From Coffea arabica (lineage: Eukaryota > Streptophyta > Magnoliopsida > Gentianales > Rubiaceae), in assembly GCF_036785885.1 (NCBI RefSeq), contig NC_092312.1, positions 11,488,001 to 11,552,000 of the forward strand: 64,000 bases of DNA, given 5' to 3'. The notes beneath the pieces were generated by a model. It did not search any database. It was given only the letters and a program-made list of their open reading frames with translations, and was not told the DNA's origin. This document shows, piece after piece, positions 14,721-59,246 of the stretch (positions are counted from its first letter, which is position 1; the number at the start of each line of letters is the position of its first letter). The position numbers were made by a program, and so were the translations under genes.

Positions 14721-16274
14721 TATATAAAATTTCCTTATTCAACCCTTATATATTCTTTTCTCTCCTAAAAAGAAAAACACACATTCAAATAAAGAAAGCG
14801 CACACCAATGTAAACATTCCATCCTCTATGGTGGGCTGAGTGGTTACTTCGCCCCTAAGCTGAGGGTGGCAAGCAAGAATGGACACGGAAGGAGTCTTGG
14901 CCGTTGATAGTGCTTTCCATATAGGGAAAAATGGAATGTATGCATGTAAATTGAAAGATACAACTCGGAGGTTGTTTTGAGGTTAAAAAAAGAAATGAGT
15001 TTCCATGTGGAATATATGAAGGTATTCGATTCAATAACATTTAATCTTGTGGGGTTCCAAAGTTGACAGAAAGAGATGTATATCTGCGTAGAAAGAGAGA
15101 CTCGTATTGTTTCATGCAGTCCTTTTTAATTAGCACACACAAATGTAGGGATGAAGAAAGAATGGTCGGTGTAATTGTCTGCTGTTCTATAACCATTCAT
15201 GGTGGTGATTGATGATGATGATTAACTCTAAATCATATAGTGAGAGTGAGAGAGAGAGAGAGGTTAATTAGGTAAAGGCGTTGGAGCCTTGGGGTGTAAA
15301 CCAGTTGTCACCACGTGATTCCTCGTGGGGGCGGCCAATTTTTACAAACTTTTTAACCCATAACAGATTCTCGCTCTGTAGTAGTAACATTTAGATTTTC
15401 ATAAGTGGAAAATTTTTCCCTAGACATGCATACATACAAGGGACGGGAGGACAAAACTTGTATACAGCGTACTAGTCAAAATTATTCTTTTATTCGATTC
15501 ATGTCTCACTAACTAGTCTGTAGGTGGTAAGTAAGCAGTCCAACATAACATTAAGGCAGACTCGCCATTTTCAATAATTGTGGTGAAGAAAAATCTATGC
15601 GCCTAAAAGATGTAGTAATTCTTGCGGGTGCTCATAGGCTTTGGCTGTTCATCTGATCCACCGGACTGAAAATCTATGCCACAGGCCACCAAGGACGGAC
15701 TATCCGCCGTATAATCTTCAGCCTCTGAACTGTATCGGAGTCTTTTCACTCGATTAAATTCTTTGGCGCTGTCGTTTGCATTTCAACCATGAAATCATTT
15801 TAACAGCAATATGTGATGGCTCAAGTACAAGCAAAATTGTCTCATAAATAGTCACCAGGGGTTACCGGACAAACTGCTAGCAAACATCCGGGATTGAAAT
15901 TTGATATAGGTGCTAGCTACTAGGTAGTACCCGGAATTGACACCGGAGTCACCAAGAAAATGATGATGACGATGGAAACCTTCATGATCAGTCTTGTGGA
16001 GGGGTCTCTTGCTAGCTTCATGTGGAGGTATAGCTAGCCTAGGTACTGGCTAAGATTATTGTTAATTTGATTTTGCAGTGGACAAAAGCTAGTGTTAAAT
16101 CGTAAATCTTTTCGCTTTCGCCTCATGTTGATCTCGCAGCATCATAAGACGATTGAAAATGTTGAAGGACTTGAAATGCTTATCGTTCATGCTCAAAAGT
16201 TCACTTTGATTAGACTTTTGGGATATATTATCAGGCGACGGACTCTTAACAAAAACTTGCATTAATATTTCCTT
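14721..16274. other. Spacer with one weak exon candidate
   Basis: Gene-poor DNA with a (GA)n tract at 15241-15262. Apart from the minus-strand terminal-exon candidate at 15603-15768 I see nothing I can name. An open minus-strand frame at 16095-16274, just left of a MITE, has no recognisable motif. Confidence 0.35.
15603..15768 (-). CDS. Possible terminal exon of an unrecognised gene
   Basis: On the minus strand an acceptor-like ACGACAG (just right of 15768) is followed by 55 in-phase codons ending in TAG. The predicted peptide contains EFNRVKRLRYSSEAEDY and ends STRKNYYIF, a plausible coding-like composition. I do not recognise the family and found no upstream exon that would join it. A chance open frame of this length is quite possible. 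Confidence 0.18.
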
Positions 16275-16467
16275 CGCAACGGATCTCCTATTCCACACTC
16301 TGTGTCACTCTCTGTCTCATTTTTTATTATATTGCTATTTCTCCTGCATAAACATCATGTTTTAGTTCTTTTTTGTTTTCTTAACATCCAATACCTATTA
16401 ATTGAGTAATACATAAAATTTAACAAACTCAAAAAATCAAAATGTGTGGGACAGAAGATCCGTTGCG
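16275..16467. mobile_element. Mutator-type MITE (CGCAACGG family), older copy
   Basis: A 193-bp element whose ends are inverted repeats: CGCAACGGATCTCCTATTCC on the left, and CGCAACGGATCTTCTGTCCC read inward from the right. The 9-bp flanks TATTTCCTT and TCCTTCCTT match at 7 of 9 positions. It belongs to the same family as the 395-bp element at 58647-59041, sharing the termini and the subterminal TTTTTATTATATTGCTATTT word. It has no coding capacity. Confidence 0.75.
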
Positions 16468-47693: not shown

Positions 47694-47913
47694 AAATTTG
47701 GTGTACCATAAAATCGAATGGACAAACAAGAAAACACTTGGGATCCTTGGTGACATGTTTTCTATGTCAATCCAATGCCATCAATAGTGTTGCATCAAGT
47801 GTCATGTTATTATTTAAACTTGTATTAAACCAAGCCAAATTGAATTATTAGAAAATTAAAATGTAAATAATAATAAGACACTTGGCACAATACTATTGGT
47901 GGCATTGGATTGA

Positions 47914-48286
47914 GGCTAATTGATCCGAATATTGATGAAAAAAAAACCCTTCAGACACTTGCGGGTCTGACAGTAGTACGGTATAAATATATGGGTGCCG
48001 GGCTGACACAGCCCGGCACCTGACACCAAAAAATTTTTTTTTTTTTTTAAAAGACACATGGGTGCCGGGCTGTGTCAGCCCGGCACCTGAAAAAGTCAGA
48101 AAAAGTTGGCTGCCGGGCAGTCTCTGCCCGGCAGCCAGTCAAATAGTAAAAAAAAAATTTCGAAGGGCCTCAATGCAATTCAGACAAAGGGCTCAACTGC
48201 AAAAGCTGGCTGCCGGGCACTCTCTGCCCGGCAGCCAGTCAAAGTGTTTAAAAAAATATTCGGCAGGCTTCAATGCAATTCAGACA
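47914..48286. repeat. Left terminal inverted repeat of the MULE, with four GC-rich hairpins
   Basis: It matches 58274-58613 in inverse orientation. It contains palindromes built on two themes. GGTGCCGGGCTG-aca-CAGCCCGGCACC (about 47994-48020) and the same with a tgt loop (about 48061-48087) each have perfect 12-bp arms. GGCTGCCGGGCAG-tct-CTGCCCGGCAGCC (48108-48136) has 13-bp arms, and there is a near-copy at 48208-48236. Such sites could be transposase-binding sites or fold-back RNA sources; that is inference. Confidence 0.9.
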
Positions 48287-48519
48287 ATGTAGCTCCCGTG
48301 AATTTTTCACACTTTTTTGCTTCAGATTTGCCCCTTTTGCAGGCTTGTGGACAAAAAAAAAATTGTCTGCAGCTCCCGTGAAGCAAAAAAGAGCTGAATC
48401 AAAACAAATTTACGTACGATTGGACAAAAGAACTATGCTCCATTAGACTTTAGCAGGTCGTGAAACAATAATTGTGTGCTACCGGTAATAAAATTTTTTT
48501 TTAAAAAAAAAAACTTTGT

Positions 48520-48570
48520 AATCTAGCCGTCCAAACGGACGGCTAGATTTTACCTTATGCTCTATATAAG
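48520..48570 (+). promoter_or_regulatory. Perfect hairpin plus TATA box of the MULE transposase
   Basis: AATCTAGCCGTCC-aaac-GGACGGCTAGATT (48520-48549) is a perfect 13-bp inverted repeat with a 4-base loop. A TATA box TATATAAG follows at 48563-48570, and a CT-rich leader begins about 30 bases later (about 48595). This fits a core promoter for the transposase gene. The palindrome's role as an operator-like or terminator-like site is unknown. Confidence 0.65.
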
Positions 48571-48599
48571 CACTGAGGAACTTCCTCATCGTCCGCACC

Positions 48600-50391
48600 T
48601 CTCACTTTCTCCCCTACGAAATTTACATTTCTCATTTTTCTCTCAGCCCTCAGTCGGAGTTTACATTTCTCAGTGTCTCACACTTTCACACGAGCACCTC
48701 ACTTTACATTTTGCAGAGTTGGGCGTATTACTATCTTGTGGCCCTAATCGATATTTTGAAGAGTTGGGCAAAGAACTGTCCTGTGGTCCAAATCGTGAGT
48801 ATTTGTTGGCTTAGTCCTCCTTATTTAACAAATGATTATTACTTTGTTTGGCAGTAGAATTGGCTTGTGGTCCTGTTGGTGTTTCTAATAATTACCTTAT
48901 TCTTATGCAGAATTGGCATCAGACGCTTGGTGCCGTGTTTTTGTTAATCGCCGTGCTGATTAATTGCGGTGCTTCTGTTAAGGTCGCCGGGCTCATTACT
49001 CACGGTGCTCCCAAGGCAATCGATTTTTTTGATTCAAAAAAGGTTAGTGATTTGTATTATATAAAAGTTGCTATAATTTGTCATTTTATGTTAGTGAATT
49101 GTTGATAAATATTTTATGATATTATTATAATTTGTTATTAATTAAATATTTAATTTATTGTTGAAGCAATTGTAAACATATAATGTAGTTTACGTATGTT
49201 TGTTAATATTAGTTAGTGAAGCACGGTACACGCTTAGTTGAATTAGTTTAGTGATTGAATTAGTTTAAGTAGATTAATTAGTTGTTTAAATTTGTTTAAT
49301 AAATGTATTTAAAGTGATTGATTAAATGAATATAAATCTATAATAAATGCAGTACATAAAATTGATGTCATTAGCATAGCTTAATATCGAAATTAGTATT
49401 ATTGGTTCAATGCAATTCACCTTATTATGCAAGTTAGTTGATAATTAGTCCACGGTATTTAGTATATGATTAGTTTAATTAGTTTTGTGATTTAATTAGA
49501 TTAATTAGTTGCTTTTTAATTAGTTGAATGAATTAAATTTAATAGGTTCGATTAGATGAATTTAGATGTATTTGTCGAGTCATGTATTGAGTTTTGATTA
49601 TGATAGCTATTTAGTAGGGATAATTTAAGTATTTGAAATAATTGCTACATTTAATACATAAAATGCATAAACATAATGTAATTAGGTTAGCTTTATTTCA
49701 AAATTAGGGGTATTAGTTTAATGCAATTGACTTTGTTGCGCAAGTTAGTTGATAACTAGCTTGTGCTATTTAGTATCTGATTAGATTAAGTAGTTTTGTG
49801 GTTTAATTAGTTAAATTAGGACCTCTCACTCTTTTGTAATTAATTAATTTTAAGAGGTCGATTAAATGAATTTAGATTTATTTGTCGAGGCATGTATTGA
49901 GTTTTGGTTATGATAGCTATTTAGTGGGGATAATTCAAGTATTTGGAAAAACTGCTACATTTAATACATTAAATGCATAAACATAACGTAATTAGCATAA
50001 AATCATTTTAAAATAGGGTTTTTAATATTAGTAAGATATTTGATTAGAATTTCATATTTAATTGACCAAATATGAAATGTAGGTGCATGATAGACTTAGC
50101 ATAAGGTAAAATTTTTATAACTAAATGTAGTAATTAAGGTGGTTAATTAGGTTTACTTTGTTATTTATTAAATGATACGTTTATTTGTTATAAATGGTTG
50201 AATTATTTAATTATAATGCTTTTTTTGTTGTTATTTGTTATATTATTGGTTATTATTTGTTACAATTATGGACTCATAATTGTTTATTTATTTGTTATAA
50301 ATTATACATATTTGATTCGATCAATTAATTGATTATTCAAATAAGCTTATCAATGCGATTTTACAATGTTATCAACACTCGTCCGTAATAG
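48600..50391 (+). other. MULE leader exon and 5' intron with about 310-bp degenerate tandem repeats
   Basis: A CT-rich leader begins soon after the TATA box. Donor AAAAAAG|GTTAGTG lies at 49042/49043 and acceptor CCGTAATAG ends at 50391, just before the transposase ATG. Within the intron, about 49370-49995 holds two clear copies and a partial third of a unit of about 310 bp (shared words TTTGTCGAG-CATGTATTGAG and ATTTAATACAT-AAATGCATAA). Open frames in the leader region do not resemble known proteins. Confidence 0.55.
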
Positions 50392-50398
50392 GTATAAC

Positions 50399-53184
50399 AT
50401 GTCAAGTGATAATTGCCTGGTGATACAATTATATTGGGGAGGAAAAATTATATACAAAAAGGGGTCAATTTCATATGATCCTCCTATACCGAAAAATGCG
50501 TTGTTCCTGACAGAGGTGGTGGGTTATGATGAATTGGTAGATAGAATATACACTATTATGGGTTTAGATCGGAACAGCTATAACATTAGTTTGATATATC
50601 GGAGTTGTCTCCAAAATGGCAAGTTTGGTGCAATGCCTTTGGTAAATGACAATGGAGTTGCTGGTCTGTACTACTTACAATCTGGTAGTAGGCTTGCAAC
50701 CGAAATATATGTGGAGGTCGAGAAGCTATTGGGTTTAGAAGAACATGGTACCGATGGTTTATAAATTATAAGTGGTAATCTTGAGCGAGGCGGTAGCAGT
50801 TCCGAACATATATCTTTATTGCAGCTAGTCGCCCATTTTGAGAGTCAAATGACCCAACTAGCTAGAGCAGATGTCGAACAAAGGCATAGAGGGCGAAGAA
50901 GGGGTACTGGTCGGCAGACGAATAATGAGCCTCCATGTACAGGTGCTCGACCGATAATTCACACCTCAAGCATTCATTCTCGAGGTGCGGATATTGAATC
51001 GGCACCAATGTTTGATGCACAGCCATCTACTGACGATCAGTTTGTAGATGTTGACATGGACTCCGAACCGGAGCCCAATCTTAGTGGTTCGGATGATGAG
51101 AACCACGAACATGGTACTGATAGTCAAGCAGGGCATCTAGAGGGCACATCTATGGCCCATGATGACATGGATCACGGTGCCCCCTGGATAAATAGTGAGG
51201 GTCCACAACTGCGTTATGAAGCTGGTGTTGACGCTGCATTGAATTTTGACCCCCTTGATGCTGGGCGAGTGGAAAAGTTAAGAATGTGGAATGAACACAC
51301 CAGAGATTTAGAATTGGGCCATCTTTTTGAATCAAAGGAGCATGTCCAACGAGCTGTGAAGTTGTGGTCCATCAAGGAGAACAGGGAGTTCAGAGTTCGT
51401 GAGAGCACGCCAACGACTTGGTATGTTCGTTGTCGGGCTCGTAACTCCGTCCCCCCTTGTAATTGGCAGCTTCGTGCAACCTTACGGAGCTCGCACAACA
51501 TGTGGATGATTGTCACACTTGCTGACGCACATACTTGCGTCCGTATTTGCTATAGTAACGATCACCGTGGATTGAGTAGTGACATAATTGCTGAGCACAT
51601 TATTCCCCATATTATGAATGGTCCGGTGTACAAAATCAAGGAAATTCAGGCATCGGTGAAACAAGAGTTTCATTGTGATGTGTCATATAAGAAGGCTTGG
51701 TACGCTAGACGCCGTGCCATTGATATATTATATGGGGACTGGCCGACATCCATATTGCAACTGCCGACATATATTGAGGAGTTACAACGATCGAATCCAG
51801 GGACGGTAGTTGTGTGGGATCATCATCCATTAAGTACCCCATCTGCAATAATTTTTGATTATATATTTTGGGTATTTGCTCCAGCCATCCAAGCTTTCCG
51901 CTATCTAAAACCGGTGATATGCGTGGATGGTACCTTTTTAAAAGGGCCTTATCGGGGAAAACTTTTGGTCGCCATAGGGTTTGATGCTGACAATTCAATG
52001 TTTCCTTTGGCATATGCCCTAGTTGATGAGGAGAATAATCGGAGTTGGTCTTGGTTCATGAGACTGTTACGCATTCACGTGTGTGGTGATGTGCAAAATA
52101 TATGCATTATTTCTGATCGTCACCACGGCATTATAAACGCAATGCGTACACTCGAAGAGTGGCAGGAGCCATTAGGGGTGCACCGATTCTGTTTGATTCA
52201 TATTCGGAGTAATTTCACACAAAAATTCAAGAATGAGAGGTAAATTGTCTCCGAACCTTTAAAAATAATGCATCCGCACCCTAACATATTAAACATATAT
52301 TAAACTTATTCTGACGATATTTTATGTTGCCTGGTAGACTTAAAAGTCTGATGTACGCTGCTGGTGTGGCAAATCAGCCGCGCAAGTATGAGGACAACAT
52401 GAATTTGATTTACTCCTTGAATTTGGAGGCGTACACATGGCTAACGGGTGGATCAGTTCGACCCGAGCAATGGGCTCTGTGCAAAGATGGGGGTTATCGT
52501 TGGGGGCACATATCCACAAATATGGCTGAATGTTTCAATAATTTGTTGAGGGACGCTCGGTTGCTTCCAATTACTGCATGCATACGGTTCACATTCAATC
52601 AAACAGTTGACCTGTTTGTCAAAAATCATAAGGTGGCATGGAATCTAGTATACGCGCTCCCAAAAAAATTTTGGAAGCTATATGTAAAAAATGAAAAAAA
52701 AGGGAGGGCACATGCAGTTCAAGTGTTCGATCACCAGAGAGGCATTTACTGTATCACAACTGCTTATCGACAAAGCCGACAAGGAGGTAATGCCCAGACT
52801 GTCGACATTGGAAGTCACACATGTACATGTGGAAAATGGAGAGAACTACGCTTCCCATGTTCGCATGCTATGGCAGCGTGTTATAGGTGTGGTATTAGTC
52901 CAATGACGCTTGTCGCTCATGAGCATACGTTTCCCGCTTATCAGGCTACATTCAGTGGTTCTTTTCAGCCGCTACGGGATCCAAAATATTGGACCACATC
53001 TGAATTAAAACTGAATGTCAATGGAGATCGGTTGAAACAAAAGATGCCCGGACCATTGAGAACTGCTAGGATCAGAAATCAGATGGATAGAAGATGTCCT
53101 GATGCACCACGTCGATGCAGTAACTGCTTACAGCCGGGTCACACTGCCCCTAATTGTCCATATACTGGTTATTTTCATAAATAA
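50399..53184 (+). CDS. MURA-type MULE transposase
   Basis: Exons 50399-52239 and 52338-53184 join AG|A (Arg) for 895 codons. I chose ATG 50399 (MSSDNCLVIQLYWGGKI) because it follows a splice acceptor and matches MURA N-termini. Order: N-terminal beta-rich domain (1-120); acidic linker; MuDR DNA-binding domain (about 300-370, with FRVRESTPTTWYVRCRA); MULE catalytic domain (about 470-600, with CVDGTFLKGPYRGKLLVAIG and CIISDRHHGIINAM giving two Asp of the DDE triad); SWIM zinc finger (CTCGKWRELRFPCSHA); C-terminal zinc knuckle (CSNCLQPGHTAPNC). An in-frame TAA occurs at 50762-50764. It may be a nonsense change, or it may be removed by a short intron (phase-0 GAG|GT at 50716/50717 to CAG at 50824). 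It binds TIRs and cuts and pastes the element. Confidence 0.9.
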
Positions 53185-53416
53185 CTTGAGCTGTCTCAGT
53201 TCTGGTAGAGGGTTGTACTAATAAGTAACTGGTATTTGATATTTGATAGTATTAAATGCATAACTTTTGATGTATTATCTGTTATGAACTGCTATTTGGT
53301 AGTGATAAATGTTAAACTCTGGATGTATTGTCTGTTGTGATGCATTTGTTAAAGTGTTAAAATTTGGAGAATAAACATGGTACTTATATTATTTGTATCT
53401 GAAAGTAGGATTTAAA

Positions 53417-55927
53417 ATGGAGCGATGGAACAGAACCACAGCGCCCCCTCATCCCGGTCCCTTGGATGACAGTGTTTTATATCTACAATCAGAACACAGG
53501 TCAGCTGCGATCTTTCAAGGCAATGGTGTGGATTTAGATGTTCGGCGGTGTGATAAGAGGTTTTTTCAACCTCTTATACATTTAGATGAACGGGTTGCGC
53601 ACTACATCGATGCTGCTGGCTTTTATGGCATTCGCCGCGCCGGTTATCTCACAGTAGATCATGGTCTTATTAATGCACTTGTGGAGCGTTGGAGGCAAGA
53701 GACACACACTTTTCACCTTCCAGTTATGGGAGAGGCGACTGTGACTCTGCAGGATGTGGAGGTTTTATGGGGTCTAAGCGTTGATGGTCTACCCGTCACA
53801 TTAGTACAGACGAAACGTAGTCCATTAGACCGCAAACAGTTGGTTAACGACCTTTTGGGATATTGGCCAGAAGATAATATGCTGAACCACGGTCGTCTGA
53901 AGTTATCGTCCATATCCCGACGGTTGAGTACGCCACTGCCTGCAGATGCTTCTGATGAGATGGTTCGCCAGTATGCCCGGATGAACATTCTAATTCTATT
54001 GGGTGGATTGCTATTTGCAGATTCGTGTCAGAACGTCGTCAGTTTAAGTTGGCTAGACTATGTTCGGGATTTGGATGCCATGAGCCAGTACAGCTGGGGA
54101 TCTGCGACGTTGGCGTGTTATACCGACGATTGTGCCACGCATCACGTGTGTCTGCAATCACATCTGGAGGTCCGTACTTGTTAGTACAGCTTTGGGCGTG
54201 GGAGCGGATTCCCGTGATTCGTCCTGATATACTCCCATATTCTGGGATTGGGGATTTTCCTAGAGGTGGTAGATGGGCCGCTCAACGAACAGGGGTTGAC
54301 CCTTATAGCCGATCCACTACATCTTATCGGGAGCAGCTAGCCTTATTGCGGTTGGATCAGGTATAACGTCTATATCAATAAATTATATTTTATAGTCCCT
54401 CGTTTTTAATTTTGGATCGTATCTAAATTATGGTTATGGTAGCAGTTTATTTGGATGCCGTATAGCAATGGCGTACTGGCTAGTCTACCTGATTATTGCA
54501 GAAGAGGGGAGCGCATATGGCGGGCAAGAGTCCCTCTAATTTTCTGGCACATCGTTGAAATACATTGTCCAGATCGTGTCATGCGCCAATTTGGGATGAG
54601 GCAGGAAATTCCGGAAGAAGTTGACACTAATCGAGCTTTACACCAATTGGAGATTTCCGGTTATCCTGGAAGAAATTGGGCTCATTTTCATCGGGATTGG
54701 ATAGGATACTGGAATGCGCGTGGAGAAGCACAAGTACCTGGCGTGCCTACAACCACGTTCAGGCCTTCCAATAATTATCTGGAGTGGTATCACAATCACA
54801 CCGTTCTGTACATTACGCCGCCTATCCAGCAGCAGGCACAAGTTGGACAAATGTTGCATGGAGTTTCGGGCCAGTTGGAGTATTTGGTAAATTACTACTA
54901 TCTCCCAAATTTAATTTATTTACTTTTGGACAATGGATGATCATGTTTTCTCCTATTTTGTATATGTCAGATGAATACTATGCAGCGCATTGGTCGGCAA
55001 TCACATGGTGCACTTGAACTTGATGACCCTGGGAGTCGATTTCATCCACGTCTTGCAACAATTGTTGATGGAGCATATGGATCAATGCAATATCTCCAGC
55101 GCTTTGATCGCATGGTTGTTGGTGATTATGATTCTTTCGATCATAATCCTCATGTGACACCAGAAATTCCTATCCAACCTCGCGTGCGACGTGTCCCTAC
55201 ACAAGGTGGACCATCATCTAGTAGAAGTCGACGCCATAGGCATGGGTTGCAGGACGAAGTCATTGAGGAGACGGGCATTCAAATGACCGAGGGGGGCACT
55301 CAGTCGCATTACAACCCGACTAGTAATCAATTCACCACATCTGTGTCTTTGCCGATGACAGACATCCACGGTGTGTCACATGGACAGAATATATCGCCCT
55401 TTACCCCTCAGGTGACATCGTTCCCGCACTCACAGTATATTGCTCTAGATGCCACGCCTTTGCCACAGTTTCCACCCTTTGGTGTATATTCCAGGCCCTC
55501 TCCATATTTGCCTGTATTTGGGGGACATTTTCCATTCTCGTCAAACGAGCCTCCATTTGGATACGTTGCCACTGCAGCGGACTCATCTTCTACTGCTAAC
55601 CTACATCCAATATTCAATTTTCTGAACGAAACGGGTGGTGTCCCTTCCATTTCAGACCTTCCCGATTATTACAGTCTTGGACAGACTACGACCGTATCTG
55701 CGTCGATCCAGCCGATATCTACTACTACATACGGTCAGACGGGGGATTTTGCCACGTATCGTTCTCAACACGATGGTGATAGTAGTACGACAGTTGAGTC
55801 GGATGAGGAGGATGACGTAGGACCCTATGCTCTTCGTGATCGTTGCAGACGAAAGCCTAAAAGATTTTGTTGTCCGTCTACAACACCAGGTGATAAAGGC
55901 AAGGGCAAAAGGCGTACCAACCGTTGA
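53417..55927 (+). CDS. Plant mobile domain (PMD, MAIN/MAIL-like) protein carried by the MULE
   Basis: Exons 53417-54360, 54446-54886 and 54971-55927 have GT-AG borders in phase (the second acceptor is an ambiguous CAG/CAG). PMD signatures: HYIDAAGFYGIRRAGYLTVD, HTFHLPVMGEATVTLQDVEV with LWGLSVDG, LLVQLWAWERIPVIRP, QFIWMPYS, then RVPLIFWHIVEIHCPDRVMR and RQFGMRQEIP. The domain fills about residues 30-450. A long Ser/Pro-rich tail follows and ends in a basic segment KGKGKRRTNR. Near 54115 the homology moves from one frame to another (WGSATLA then LYRRLCHAS), consistent with one missing base. Host PMD proteins (MAIN, MAIL1) act in silencing and genome stability, and the domain is known from transposons. 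Its role here is unknown. Start is 232 bp after the transposase stop. Confidence 0.88.
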
Positions 55928-56069
55928 TATGATCATTTCAATTGCATGTTTTACAATTTCAAATATTTGAATATGAGGATTTAGCGTTAATTTAATCTTT
56001 TATTATTATAATACTTATCGCTATTTTTAAATTCACGATTGTACAATGTCATGTTATGCATTTTTTCTT
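55928..56069. other. 3' flank of the PMD gene within the MULE
   Basis: Short AT-rich stretch before the tandem repeats; probably 3' UTR. Confidence 0.4.
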
Positions 56070-57880
56070 CTTACAGTGATTTTTTATTGCATAATCTCAA
56101 ATAATTATAAAATCTTTATTTCAAGTGAAACTTAATAGACAACTACTTGAAATGCCCAAAAAAATAACTGCTTACATATTATTCAATCGACTTAACGCTA
56201 TATAGTTACTTATATTATAATAGAATATTTAATTAACTATTTAAATTTACCAAATATAAGTATTGAACATTAGATATTAATTCCGTGGATGTTTTTAGGG
56301 TTTTAGGGTTTAGGTTTTAGAAATGCATTCTTCTTTAGGGTTTAGGGTTTAGGGTTCCTTCTTTAAGGTTACATTATCAAGGAAATTCTACGCTGTGTAT
56401 AGTCTAGGGTTTAGGGTTCAGGGTTCAGGGTTTAGGGTTCAGGCTTTTAGGGTTTAGGTTTCAGAAATGCATTCTTTTTTAGGGTTTGGGGTTTGGGGTT
56501 TAGGTTTCAGAAAATATTTATTTGTTAAAATTTATCATTTGTTTGTCATTTGTTTTGTAATTTAATTTGTTTTAACAAATGATGAAACGTGCATCATATA
56601 TAAAAGAAAATGTAGTGAAATAGAAAATTTTAGTTTGCGTATATAGTAACTTTAGTTGTAAATAGTATTAGGTATTATAATCGGTTATAATCAGGTATTA
56701 TGATTAAAATAACAAATAAAGGTGATTACCAATATAAAGAACTCACATTAATTTTTAAAAAACTTCTTGCCATTTCTTCTTGTCTTTCTTGCATATTAAA
56801 TCAAATATTTGAATCATACAATTTGTTTATCTTACATTTATTTTTTCATCTTACATTTATGTTTATCTTACAGTGATTTTTTATTGCATAATCTCAAATA
56901 ATTATAAAATCTTTATTTCAAGTGAAACTTAATAGACAACTACTTGAAATGCCCAAAAAAATAACTGCTTACATATTATTCAATCGACTTAACGCTATAT
57001 AGTTACTTATATTATAATAGAATATTTAATTAACTATTTAAATTTACCAAATATAAGTATTGAACATTAGATATTAATTCCGTGGATGTTTTTAGGGTTT
57101 TAGGGTTTAGGTTTTAGAAATGCATTCTTCTTTAGGGTTTAGGGTTTAGGGTTCCTTCTTTAAGGTTACATTATCAAGGAAATTCTACGCTGTGTATAGT
57201 CTAGGGTTTAGGGTTCAGGGTTCAGGGTTTAGGGTTCAGGCTTTTAGGGTTTAGGTTTCAGAAATGCATTCTTTTTTAGGGTTTGGGGTTTGGGGTTTAG
57301 GTTTCAGAAAATATTTATTTGTTAAAATTTATCATTTGTTTGTCATTTGTTTTGTAATTTAATTTGTTTTAACAAATGATGAAACGTGCATCATATATAA
57401 AAGAAAATGTAGTGAAATAGAAAATTTTAGTTTGCGTATATAGTAACTTTAGTTGTAAATAGTATTAGGTATTATAATCGGTTATAATCAGGTATTATGA
57501 TTAAAATAACAAATAAAGGTGATTACCAATATAAAGAACTCACATTAATTTTTAAAAAACTTCTTGCCATTTCTTCTTGTCTTTCTTGCATATTAAATCA
57601 AATATTTGAATCATACAATTTGTTTATCTTACATTTATTTTTTCATCTTACATTTATGTTTATCTTACAGTGATTTTTTATTGCATAATTTCAAATAATT
57701 ATAAAATCTTTATTTCAATTAAAACTTAATAGACAACTACTTCAAATGCCAAAAAAAATAAATGCTTACATATTATTCAATCGACTTAACGATATATAGT
57801 TACTTATAATATAATAGAATATTTAATTAATTATTTTAATTTACCAAATATAAGTATTGAACATTAAATAATGAATAAAT
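56070..57880. repeat. 797-bp tandem duplication with telomere-like arrays
   Basis: Copies start at 56070 and 56867 (CTTACAGTGATTTTTTATTG), exactly 797 bp apart and identical by eye. A third, partial and more diverged copy starts another 797 bp on at 57664 and runs to about 57880. Each full copy holds about 215 bp of degenerate plant telomere repeats (TTTAGGG, TTCAGGG, TTTGGGG) at 56295-56510 and 57092-57307. There is no coding capacity. The full copies look very recent; the partial one is older. Confidence 0.93.
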
Positions 57881-58273
57881 TTTTAAACGGCCTTTTATTA
57901 TAATTTTAATATACATAATATTTTTCATCCATGCATAATTTAATTTTTTGAGTTGCCAATATACTTCTTTATGCATCTCCGCATCTGCTTTGCTTCTGCT
58001 TATTGCGCGCAGGAAAGTGAACTTTTCACCATAGAAATGTAATCGATGTTTAATTTTTACCTCTACTTTAATTCCGTGGATTGAAGAATATTGTCAGAAA
58101 TGCATTCTTCTGCCGCATTTTTTTTTTGTAAAACAAGCCGGCAGCCAGCTTTTCACACAGGTAGAAGCCAAACGCATGGCTAATCTAACCACTTCTTCTT
58201 CATAAAGCGCTATAGCTTTGAAGGTCGTTTCATAGCTTGCCAAATGTTCTAGTGCTCTAACAGCTTGCCAAAG

Positions 58274-58613
58274 GTCTGAATTGCATTGAAGCCTGCCGAA
58301 TATTTTTTTAATATTAATTATGCAATTCAGTTGAGCCACTTTGTCTGAATTGCATTGAGGCCCTTCGAAATTTTTTTTTTACTATTTGACTGGCTGCCGG
58401 GCAGAGAGTGCCCGGCAGCCAACTTTTTCTGACTTTGTCAGGTGCCGGGCTGACACAGCCCGGCACCCATGTGTCTTTAAAAAAAAAAAATTTTTTTATG
58501 GTGTCAGGTGCCGGGCTGTGTCAGCCCGGCACCCATATATTTATACCGGACTACTGTCAGACCCGCAAGTGTCTGAAGGGTTTTTTTTTCATCAATATTC
58601 GGATCAATTAGCC
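58274..58613. repeat. Right terminal inverted repeat of the MULE
   Basis: Inverse of the left TIR, holding three of the four hairpins: GGCTGCCGGGCA... at about 58391-58419, and GGTGCCGGGCTG-type palindromes at about 58441-58467 and 58507-58533. It ends AATATTCGGATCAATTAGCC. One left-arm hairpin is replaced by an AT-rich segment here. Confidence 0.9.
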
Positions 58614-58646
58614 TTGGATTGACATATAAACATGTCACCGAAAATC

Positions 58647-59041
58647 CGCAACGGATCTTCTGTCCCACATCCTGTGCCACTCTCTGTGCCACTTTTTATT
58701 ATATTGCTATTTCTCATTCATAAACCTCATGTTTTAATTCTTTTTTGCTTCCTTAAGATCCAATAACTATTAATTCAGTAAAAAATAAATATAACAGCTT
58801 AAAAAAAGCAATATATAATAGAAAATTAAAAAATACATCAGAAAATTCATAAAAAATCTCATTTTTTATGCATTTTGAATTTTTGAGTATGTTAAATTTT
58901 GTGTATTACTGAATTAATAGTTATTGGATCTTAAAAAAGTAAAAAAGAATTAAAACATGATGTTTATGAATGAGAAATAGCAATATAATAAAAAGTGGCA
59001 CAGAGAGAGTGGCACAGAATATAAGACAGAAGATCGTTGCG
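58647..59041. mobile_element. Mutator-type MITE (CGCAACGG family) with perfect 9-bp TSD
   Basis: A 395-bp fold-back element. The left end CGCAACGGATCTTCTGTCCC and the right end are inverted copies over about 150 bases; one C is missing near the right tip. The flanks CCGAAAATC (58638-58646 and 59042-59050) are identical, so the insertion is recent. Same family as 16275-16467. It sits 25 bp from the end of the MULE and about 200 bp upstream of the epoxide hydrolase ATG. Confidence 0.92.
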
Positions 59042-59246
59042 CCGAAAATCTCAAGTGACAAGCAAGAGATGAGATTCGAATATTCCGAAAATCTTGAGAC
59101 ACAGACAACAATTGACCGACTACTACTAATGACAGACTCAAATTGAAACCGTGCGTAAGCGAAAATCAGAGCAAAATATTGGAAGTCATTTGATTTTGGA
59201 TTCTTCCTTGAGCCATTTATCGTCTGCATTTCTTGCGCTTAGTCAA

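Follow-up and report, generated by a model that had tools for sequence, protein, structure and literature searches.

The stretch of 64,000 nucleotides from Coffea arabica analysed here (contig NC_092312.1, positions 11,488,001 to 11,552,000 of the forward strand; hereafter the window) carries at 47914-58613 a damaged copy of a Mutator-like element (MULE), in which a transposase gene is followed by a gene for a plant mobile domain (PMD) protein. Both ends of the element and its 9-bp target-site duplication (TSD) can be read in the window sequence (Table 1). As the first-pass annotation of this DNA had described, the TSD is perfect, with TTGGATTGA at both ends, and the element is bounded by matched terminal inverted repeats (TIRs) of 373 and 340 bp. 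These are complementary at 85-100% in blocks, and one repeat unit of the left TIR is missing from the right one. The palindromes repeated in both TIRs (47994-48087 and 58441-58533) are GC-rich and may represent hairpins or protein sites.

Both gene models, a transposase of two exons and a PMD gene of three, are predicted from splice sites and frames and lie on the same strand, with 232 bases between the transposase stop and the PMD gene. The transposase is of the MURA type: the MULE domain (PF10551, 69.9 bits), the MuDR DNA-binding domain (26.9 bits) and the SWIM zinc finger (32.9 bits) all score above the curated Pfam cut-offs, and the zinc knuckle, which had also been proposed, stays below its own (17.3 vs 20.8 bits). 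The separate PMD gene is borne out as first drawn, and its three PMD pieces (126.4, 41.3 and 71.1 bits; cut-off 34.9) span positions 1-160, 155-236 and 238-347 of 347, that is the whole PF10536 profile. The description of the element as nearly intact holds for its structure and fails for its coding capacity: with an in-frame stop in the transposase and a frameshift in PMD exon 1, the window copy is not autonomous. Neither lesion recurs in the copies compared. The stop is a sense codon in all 11 other copies read, and one frame is kept in the eight other copies that span the frameshift; introns at these two points were rejected, as the other copies are open there. A TATA-like TATATAAGC, the possible transposase promoter, is present, but its exact form recurs in 8 of 23 family copies and is thus not universal.

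Table 1. Features of the element and its insertion site (positions in the window).
Feature	Position	Strand	Remark
Left part of the receiving miniature inverted-repeat transposable element (MITE), ~210 bp	47735..47913	.	resumes from 58614
Left TSD, TTGGATTGA	47905..47913	.	perfect, 9 bp
Left TIR	47914..48286	+	373 bp; starts GGCTAATT
Palindromes, left TIR	47994-48020 and 48061-48087		perfect, 27 bp
TATA-like TATATAAGC	48563..48571	+	possible transposase promoter
~310-bp repeat, two units	49341..50024	+	in non-coding leader
Transposase exon 1	50399..52239	+	N-terminal domain without Pfam match, MuDR DNA-binding, MULE domain; in-frame stop 50762-50764
Predicted transposase intron	52240..52337	+	GT...AG
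Transposase exon 2	52338..53184	+	SWIM zinc finger, weak CCHC knuckle
PMD gene exon 1	53417..54360	+	PF10536 positions 1-236; 1-base frameshift near 54110
PMD gene exon 2	54446..54886	+	PF10536 positions 238-347
PMD gene exon 3	54971..55927	+	long tail without Pfam match, basic stretch at end
797-bp tandem duplication	56069..57870	.	3' of PMD; 98.9% over 1005 bp
Telomere-like TTTAGGG motifs	56294..57281	+	18, in two clusters, within the duplication region
Right TIR	58274..58613	-	340 bp
Palindromes, right TIR	58441-58467 and 58507-58533
Right TSD, TTGGATTGA	58614..58622	.	matches left TSD perfectly

A search of the element's own genome (1.198 Gb, with 22 large contigs that occur in pairs) with the TIR gave at least 76 matches at E <= 0.001, the best 40 of 225 candidates being scored, and the element ends are therefore not a product of chance. 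The window copy and 22 fetched places form a set of 23 copies, 19 of them with both ends placed. A perfect 9-bp TSD flanks 17 of the 19; in copy C6 the TSD agrees at 5 of 9 bases, and in C12x it is unreadable, as the stretch ends there. Since these TSDs sit at different insertion sites, apart from C21 and C22 with one common TSD, the window family is mobile. Transposase sequence occurs in 11 of the 23 copies. A one-off capture of the PMD gene, expected by the first-pass annotation to show as TIR-bearing copies that lack it, is not the pattern found, because nine of these 11 keep the PMD. In the other two (C21:36147710-36156105 and C22:52880832-52889282) the PMD domain is absent and the tail of its gene is retained; the common TSD and the retained tail mark one secondary loss, in a single insertion carried on matching or duplicated segments of different contigs. 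Copy C11 has kept the PMD and lost the transposase except for its N-terminal domain, C12 retains only a piece of the PMD gene tail, and neither gene is left in ten of the 23 copies, mostly about 2 kb long (C18 read from one end only). Deletions have fused transposase coding sequence to the PMD with the reading frame preserved in copies C11 (430 aa) and C17 (364 aa); in C4a, a deletion within the transposase breaks the frame. Alone among the 23 copies, C8 is free of stops and frame changes in every piece searched.

PMD and MURA-type genes also occur together across the genome, a co-occurrence that the first-pass annotation had raised. We searched with the first 232 PMD residues (150 scored matches, the best of 697 candidates), with the C-terminal part of the window transposase (138 of 1361 scored) and with the same part of a distantly related transposase (143 scored matches out of 1537 candidates); as the pairing is counted on these best-scored lists, all shares are shares among listed matches. 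A listed transposase lies within 4 kb of 122 of the 150 PMD matches, with gaps of 180-970 bp, and in 122 of 122 pairs it is upstream on the same strand, so that the PMD stands just 3' of it. After shifting positions by 0.2, 0.5 and 1 Mb, 0, 0 and 0 pairs were counted. The first transposase list alone pairs with 93 of the 150 PMD matches, and in the reverse direction a PMD is found within 6 kb of 81 of the 143 matches of the distant transposase. The pairs include two clear groups, A with the window copy and B, whose members are about 50% identical to the window copy in the PMD and about 40% in the transposase. The PMD at C11:31514971 (L067) was reported as part of a joined open frame, 1051 aa long (901 bases read).

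Both genes have moreover been kept by purifying selection. From the closest to the most distant pairs, the ratio of nonsynonymous to synonymous substitution rates (dN/dS) falls from 0.46 to 0.13 in group A and from 1.55 to 0.11 in group B for PMD exon 1, and from 0.70 to 0.08 and from 0.55 to 0.08 for the transposase, with pairs of saturated dS dropped from the bins (42/135, 14/105, 32/120 and 12/105). Because all-against-all pairs share branches, we picked nine disjoint pairs from the trees. These contain 154 synonymous and 134 nonsynonymous changes in the PMD (P 5.7e-25 against 3:1, transition bias ignored) and 149 and 136 in the transposase; the PMD frame is thus not neutral, as had been considered, and is constrained about as strongly as its neighbour. 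Distances in the two genes agree (Mantel rho 0.914 for 11 loci and 0.918 for 14 loci; in each case 0 of 5000 permutations as high), and the groups are the same in both trees. Transposase and PMD have descended as a pair across deep splits in this MULE group. From pairing, distance agreement and purifying selection it follows that the PMD is a selected, co-inherited module and not a one-off capture, and the proposal that it is a functional part of the element gains support. MULEs often capture genes, and C21 and C22 still possess TIRs and a TSD after losing the PMD, as would suit a host PMD gene caught by chance and merely carried; yet these two represent one insertion and not two PMD-less transpositions, and a mere passenger, which pairing, congruent distances and purifying selection all contradict, is extremely improbable. 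Selection and co-inheritance across many loci mean that the PMD does something for the element.

At C1:56550773 (L037, L069) and C2:50998622 (L068, L070) a 547-residue open frame, exon 1 of a fusion gene, joins the transposase N-terminal domain to a PMD. The two loci are collinear, with about 94% identity over most of 9 kb and reaching the same EF-hand gene, from which we infer that C1 and C2 are homeologues. The two genes differ by 16 synonymous and 6 nonsynonymous changes in exon 1 (532 codons) and by 6 and 0 in exon 2 (149 codons), together 22 vs 6 (P 3.7e-10 against neutrality), and no indels occur in the compared coding parts. A window-type TIR was not found around the fusion gene, except for a foldback of about 280 bp on C1 only. 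That selection acts at corresponding, fixed positions is in keeping with a host gene, and the fusion has probably been domesticated; if so, it would add a new example of a host making use of MULE transposase and PMD parts. It is also what speaks for a broader reading, in which the PMD is a domesticated gene in the service of the host that merely lies in or near MULEs. We regard this as very unlikely for the window family, which is mobile by its TSDs and whose PMD-bearing copies are found at different sites, usually adjoining a transposase. The nearest relatives of the fusion N-terminal domain, at C11:63114406 (77%) and C12:62376706 (80%), have open frames of 461 and 286 aa and lie on another likely homeologous pair, with no listed PMD or transposase match there. 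The C9/C10 pairs L074/L075 and L066/L076 are 100% identical over 1301 and 601 bases, against 94% for C1/C2, which likely reflects recent exchange or copying between likely homeologues; as a neutral control they failed, since both compared pairs are identical.

What the PMD might do for the element is suggested by its relatives. MAIN and MAIL1, two host proteins with a PMD, take part in silencing transposable elements (PMC5418596, PMC8616336; all papers are cited here from excerpts), and PMD genes of the tea plant give rise to phased small RNAs (PMC10673657). That PMD is known from transposons, as the first-pass annotation stated, is in print: PMC5418596 places the first description of PMD in MULEs in rice, and an anti-silencing use of the MULE-borne PMD has been suggested there since 2017. 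Function tests of a MULE-borne PMD did not turn up in our literature searches. In our tree, a branch with 100/100 support separates the MULE PMDs and two host-like C5 genes from four intronless C10 genes, and judged by eye the C5 genes may be of the MAIN/MAIL type (PMD-C clade), perhaps orthologous to it. Since the MULE PMDs group with these host-like genes, since MAIN and MAIL1 act in silencing and since the PMDs weakly match the DUF1985 domain of VANC, we favour, at about even chances, the reading that the element is a damaged member of a MULE family with two genes, whose PMD would be the element's own counter-silencing factor. Produced alongside the transposase, the PMD protein would hold copies of its own element in a transcribable state. 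It could do so by action on the element's non-coding repeats and TIRs, like VANC in VANDAL elements, or by displacing the host MAIN/MAIL1 PMD proteins from the silencing pathway. With the selection and co-inheritance data the printed suggestion becomes testable, and the family offers copies with open frames for examining the role of the PMD.

Instead of opposing silencing, the PMD could assist transposition itself by working with the transposase, for example during assembly of the complex, import into the nucleus or integration, as supposed for maize MURB. The constant gene order and close spacing would agree with such a helper, and so would the in-frame junctions of copies C11 and C17, the fusion frame at C1 and C2, and the fusions of PMD to MULE transposases reported from grasses and Amborella (PMC5418596). 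Three in-frame junctions are, however, expected about once in 27 by chance under random frames and are therefore weak evidence, and the deletion in C4a is out of frame. As a helper would also leave the link of the PMD to host silencing proteins unexplained, we consider this possible but rather unlikely.

The counter-silencing role draws in addition on VANC, which contains DUF1985 and DUF287 and has a demonstrated loss-of-methylation effect (PMC5735166). DUF1985 matches below its cut-off in 20 of 20 MULE PMD exon-1 proteins from groups A and B, at best with E 1.3e-5; as kin sequences these do not count as independent cases. In two divergent PMD-like proteins both domains are matched, PMD at 2e-14 and 6e-14 and DUF1985 at 4e-7 and 1.3e-7 (positions 18-135 of 141), and the profile of these two can be aligned to the MULE PMDs (probability 96.6, E 7e-10). 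Among host PMDs, one host-like C5 protein matches DUF1985 at 4e-3, and the one intronless C10 protein scanned gave no match. A genome search with DUF1985 returned five matches, none above the cut-off, of which four (loci L071 to L073) fit PMD better and the fifth overlaps a listed PMD match. One of these loci, C3:106700-108150 (L071), contains two divergent PMD-like frames, 96% identical and head to head or tail to tail, with matches to both domains. Against solved structures, one PMD piece gave four irrelevant matches at E 0.7 to 1.1, and the alignment gave none up to E 10. Our literature search found no paper naming both 'DUF1985' and 'plant mobile domain'. If true, the weak link would tie the PMD to the sole MULE accessory protein known to us as shown to undo silencing.

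Several points weigh against a counter-silencing module of this kind. Read from its sequence, the window copy is unable to make either full protein. No listed transposase lies near 28 of the 150 listed PMD matches; these 28 comprise, among others, the fusion genes of C1 and C2, copy C11 and decayed copies. Constraint is weak in recently split PMD pairs, with dN/dS of 1.55 (B3/B14) and 0.70 (A16/A20), as expected in these two of the nine pairs of copies decaying after insertion. A single MULE PMD lineage distinct from host PMD, and with it descent from one capture, has a support of just 50/76. Every DUF1985 match is under the curated cut-off, the scans of PMDs reported no DUF287, and the activity of VANC may lie outside DUF1985. 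A speculative extension, which we rate as quite doubtful, would unite the MULE PMDs with VANC's DUF1985 as branches of a single superfamily of transposon counter-silencing proteins, older than the VANDALs, paired with MURA-type transposases in many plants and including the host PMD silencers, with one element here turned into the host's N-terminus-PMD fusion gene. Hosts and transposons would then fight with versions of one protein.

The element transposed into a MITE. Its left flank (47735-47904) is part of a foldback MITE with many copies, and the two flanks, joined without the element and with one TSD copy kept, match 40 uninterrupted MITE places at 90-93% across the junction (best 40 of 526 candidates). 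Contig C4 has both outer flanks (left 94% over 229 of 400 bases, right 99%) with about 15 bases between them, and the MITE, the MULE and a second downstream MITE are all missing there. This second foldback MITE, directly 3' of the element at 58647-59049, is of high copy number (1399 candidates) and related to window positions 16267-16444. The telomere-like motifs recur in other copies, with 18 in C17, 9-16 in C13, C11, C22, C21, C8, C6, C4a, C12 and C2x, 5 in C4x and none in C21x. As candidate targets of the VANC kind they were dropped, because the enriched 8-mers number 18 against a shuffle maximum of 22 and a mean of 11.

Maize MuDR, with mudrA and mudrB, resembles the present element in having a transposase and a second gene of its own. 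The two MuDR genes converge and those described here run in tandem on one strand, so the proposed likeness to MURB is a loose one. For mudrB, PMC6446971 gives the function as unknown and a requirement in integration. Closer counterparts are the PMD-bearing angiosperm MULEs (PMC5418596, PMC6446971), which equally combine transposase, SWIM domain, 9-bp TSD and PMD in one element. In the grass and Amborella cases excerpted from PMC5418596, however, the PMD is fused to the transposase, and in the groups tabulated in PMC6446971 (42, 45-50) it is often antisense, whereas here it is a separate tandem gene on the transposase strand. New in our analysis are the selection and co-inheritance tests, the weak DUF1985 match and the probably domesticated fusion gene.

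VANDAL21/Hi of Arabidopsis with its VANC21 (PMC5735166, PMC10398659) also has a second gene beside a MULE transposase, together with non-coding tandem repeats. In contrast to the long TIRs described here, those of VANDALs are degenerate or absent (PMC6446971, PMC10398659). VANC21 carries DUF1985, to which the PMDs are only weakly similar and below the cut-off; VANC also has DUF287, and its activity has been shown by experiment, whereas the PMD of the window is known from sequence. With Arabidopsis MAIN and MAIL1 the element shares Pfam PF10536, and its PMD groups with the C5 host-like genes in a tree containing no Arabidopsis sequence. It differs from these host proteins in being part of a mobile element and in its long C-terminal tail of unknown kind.

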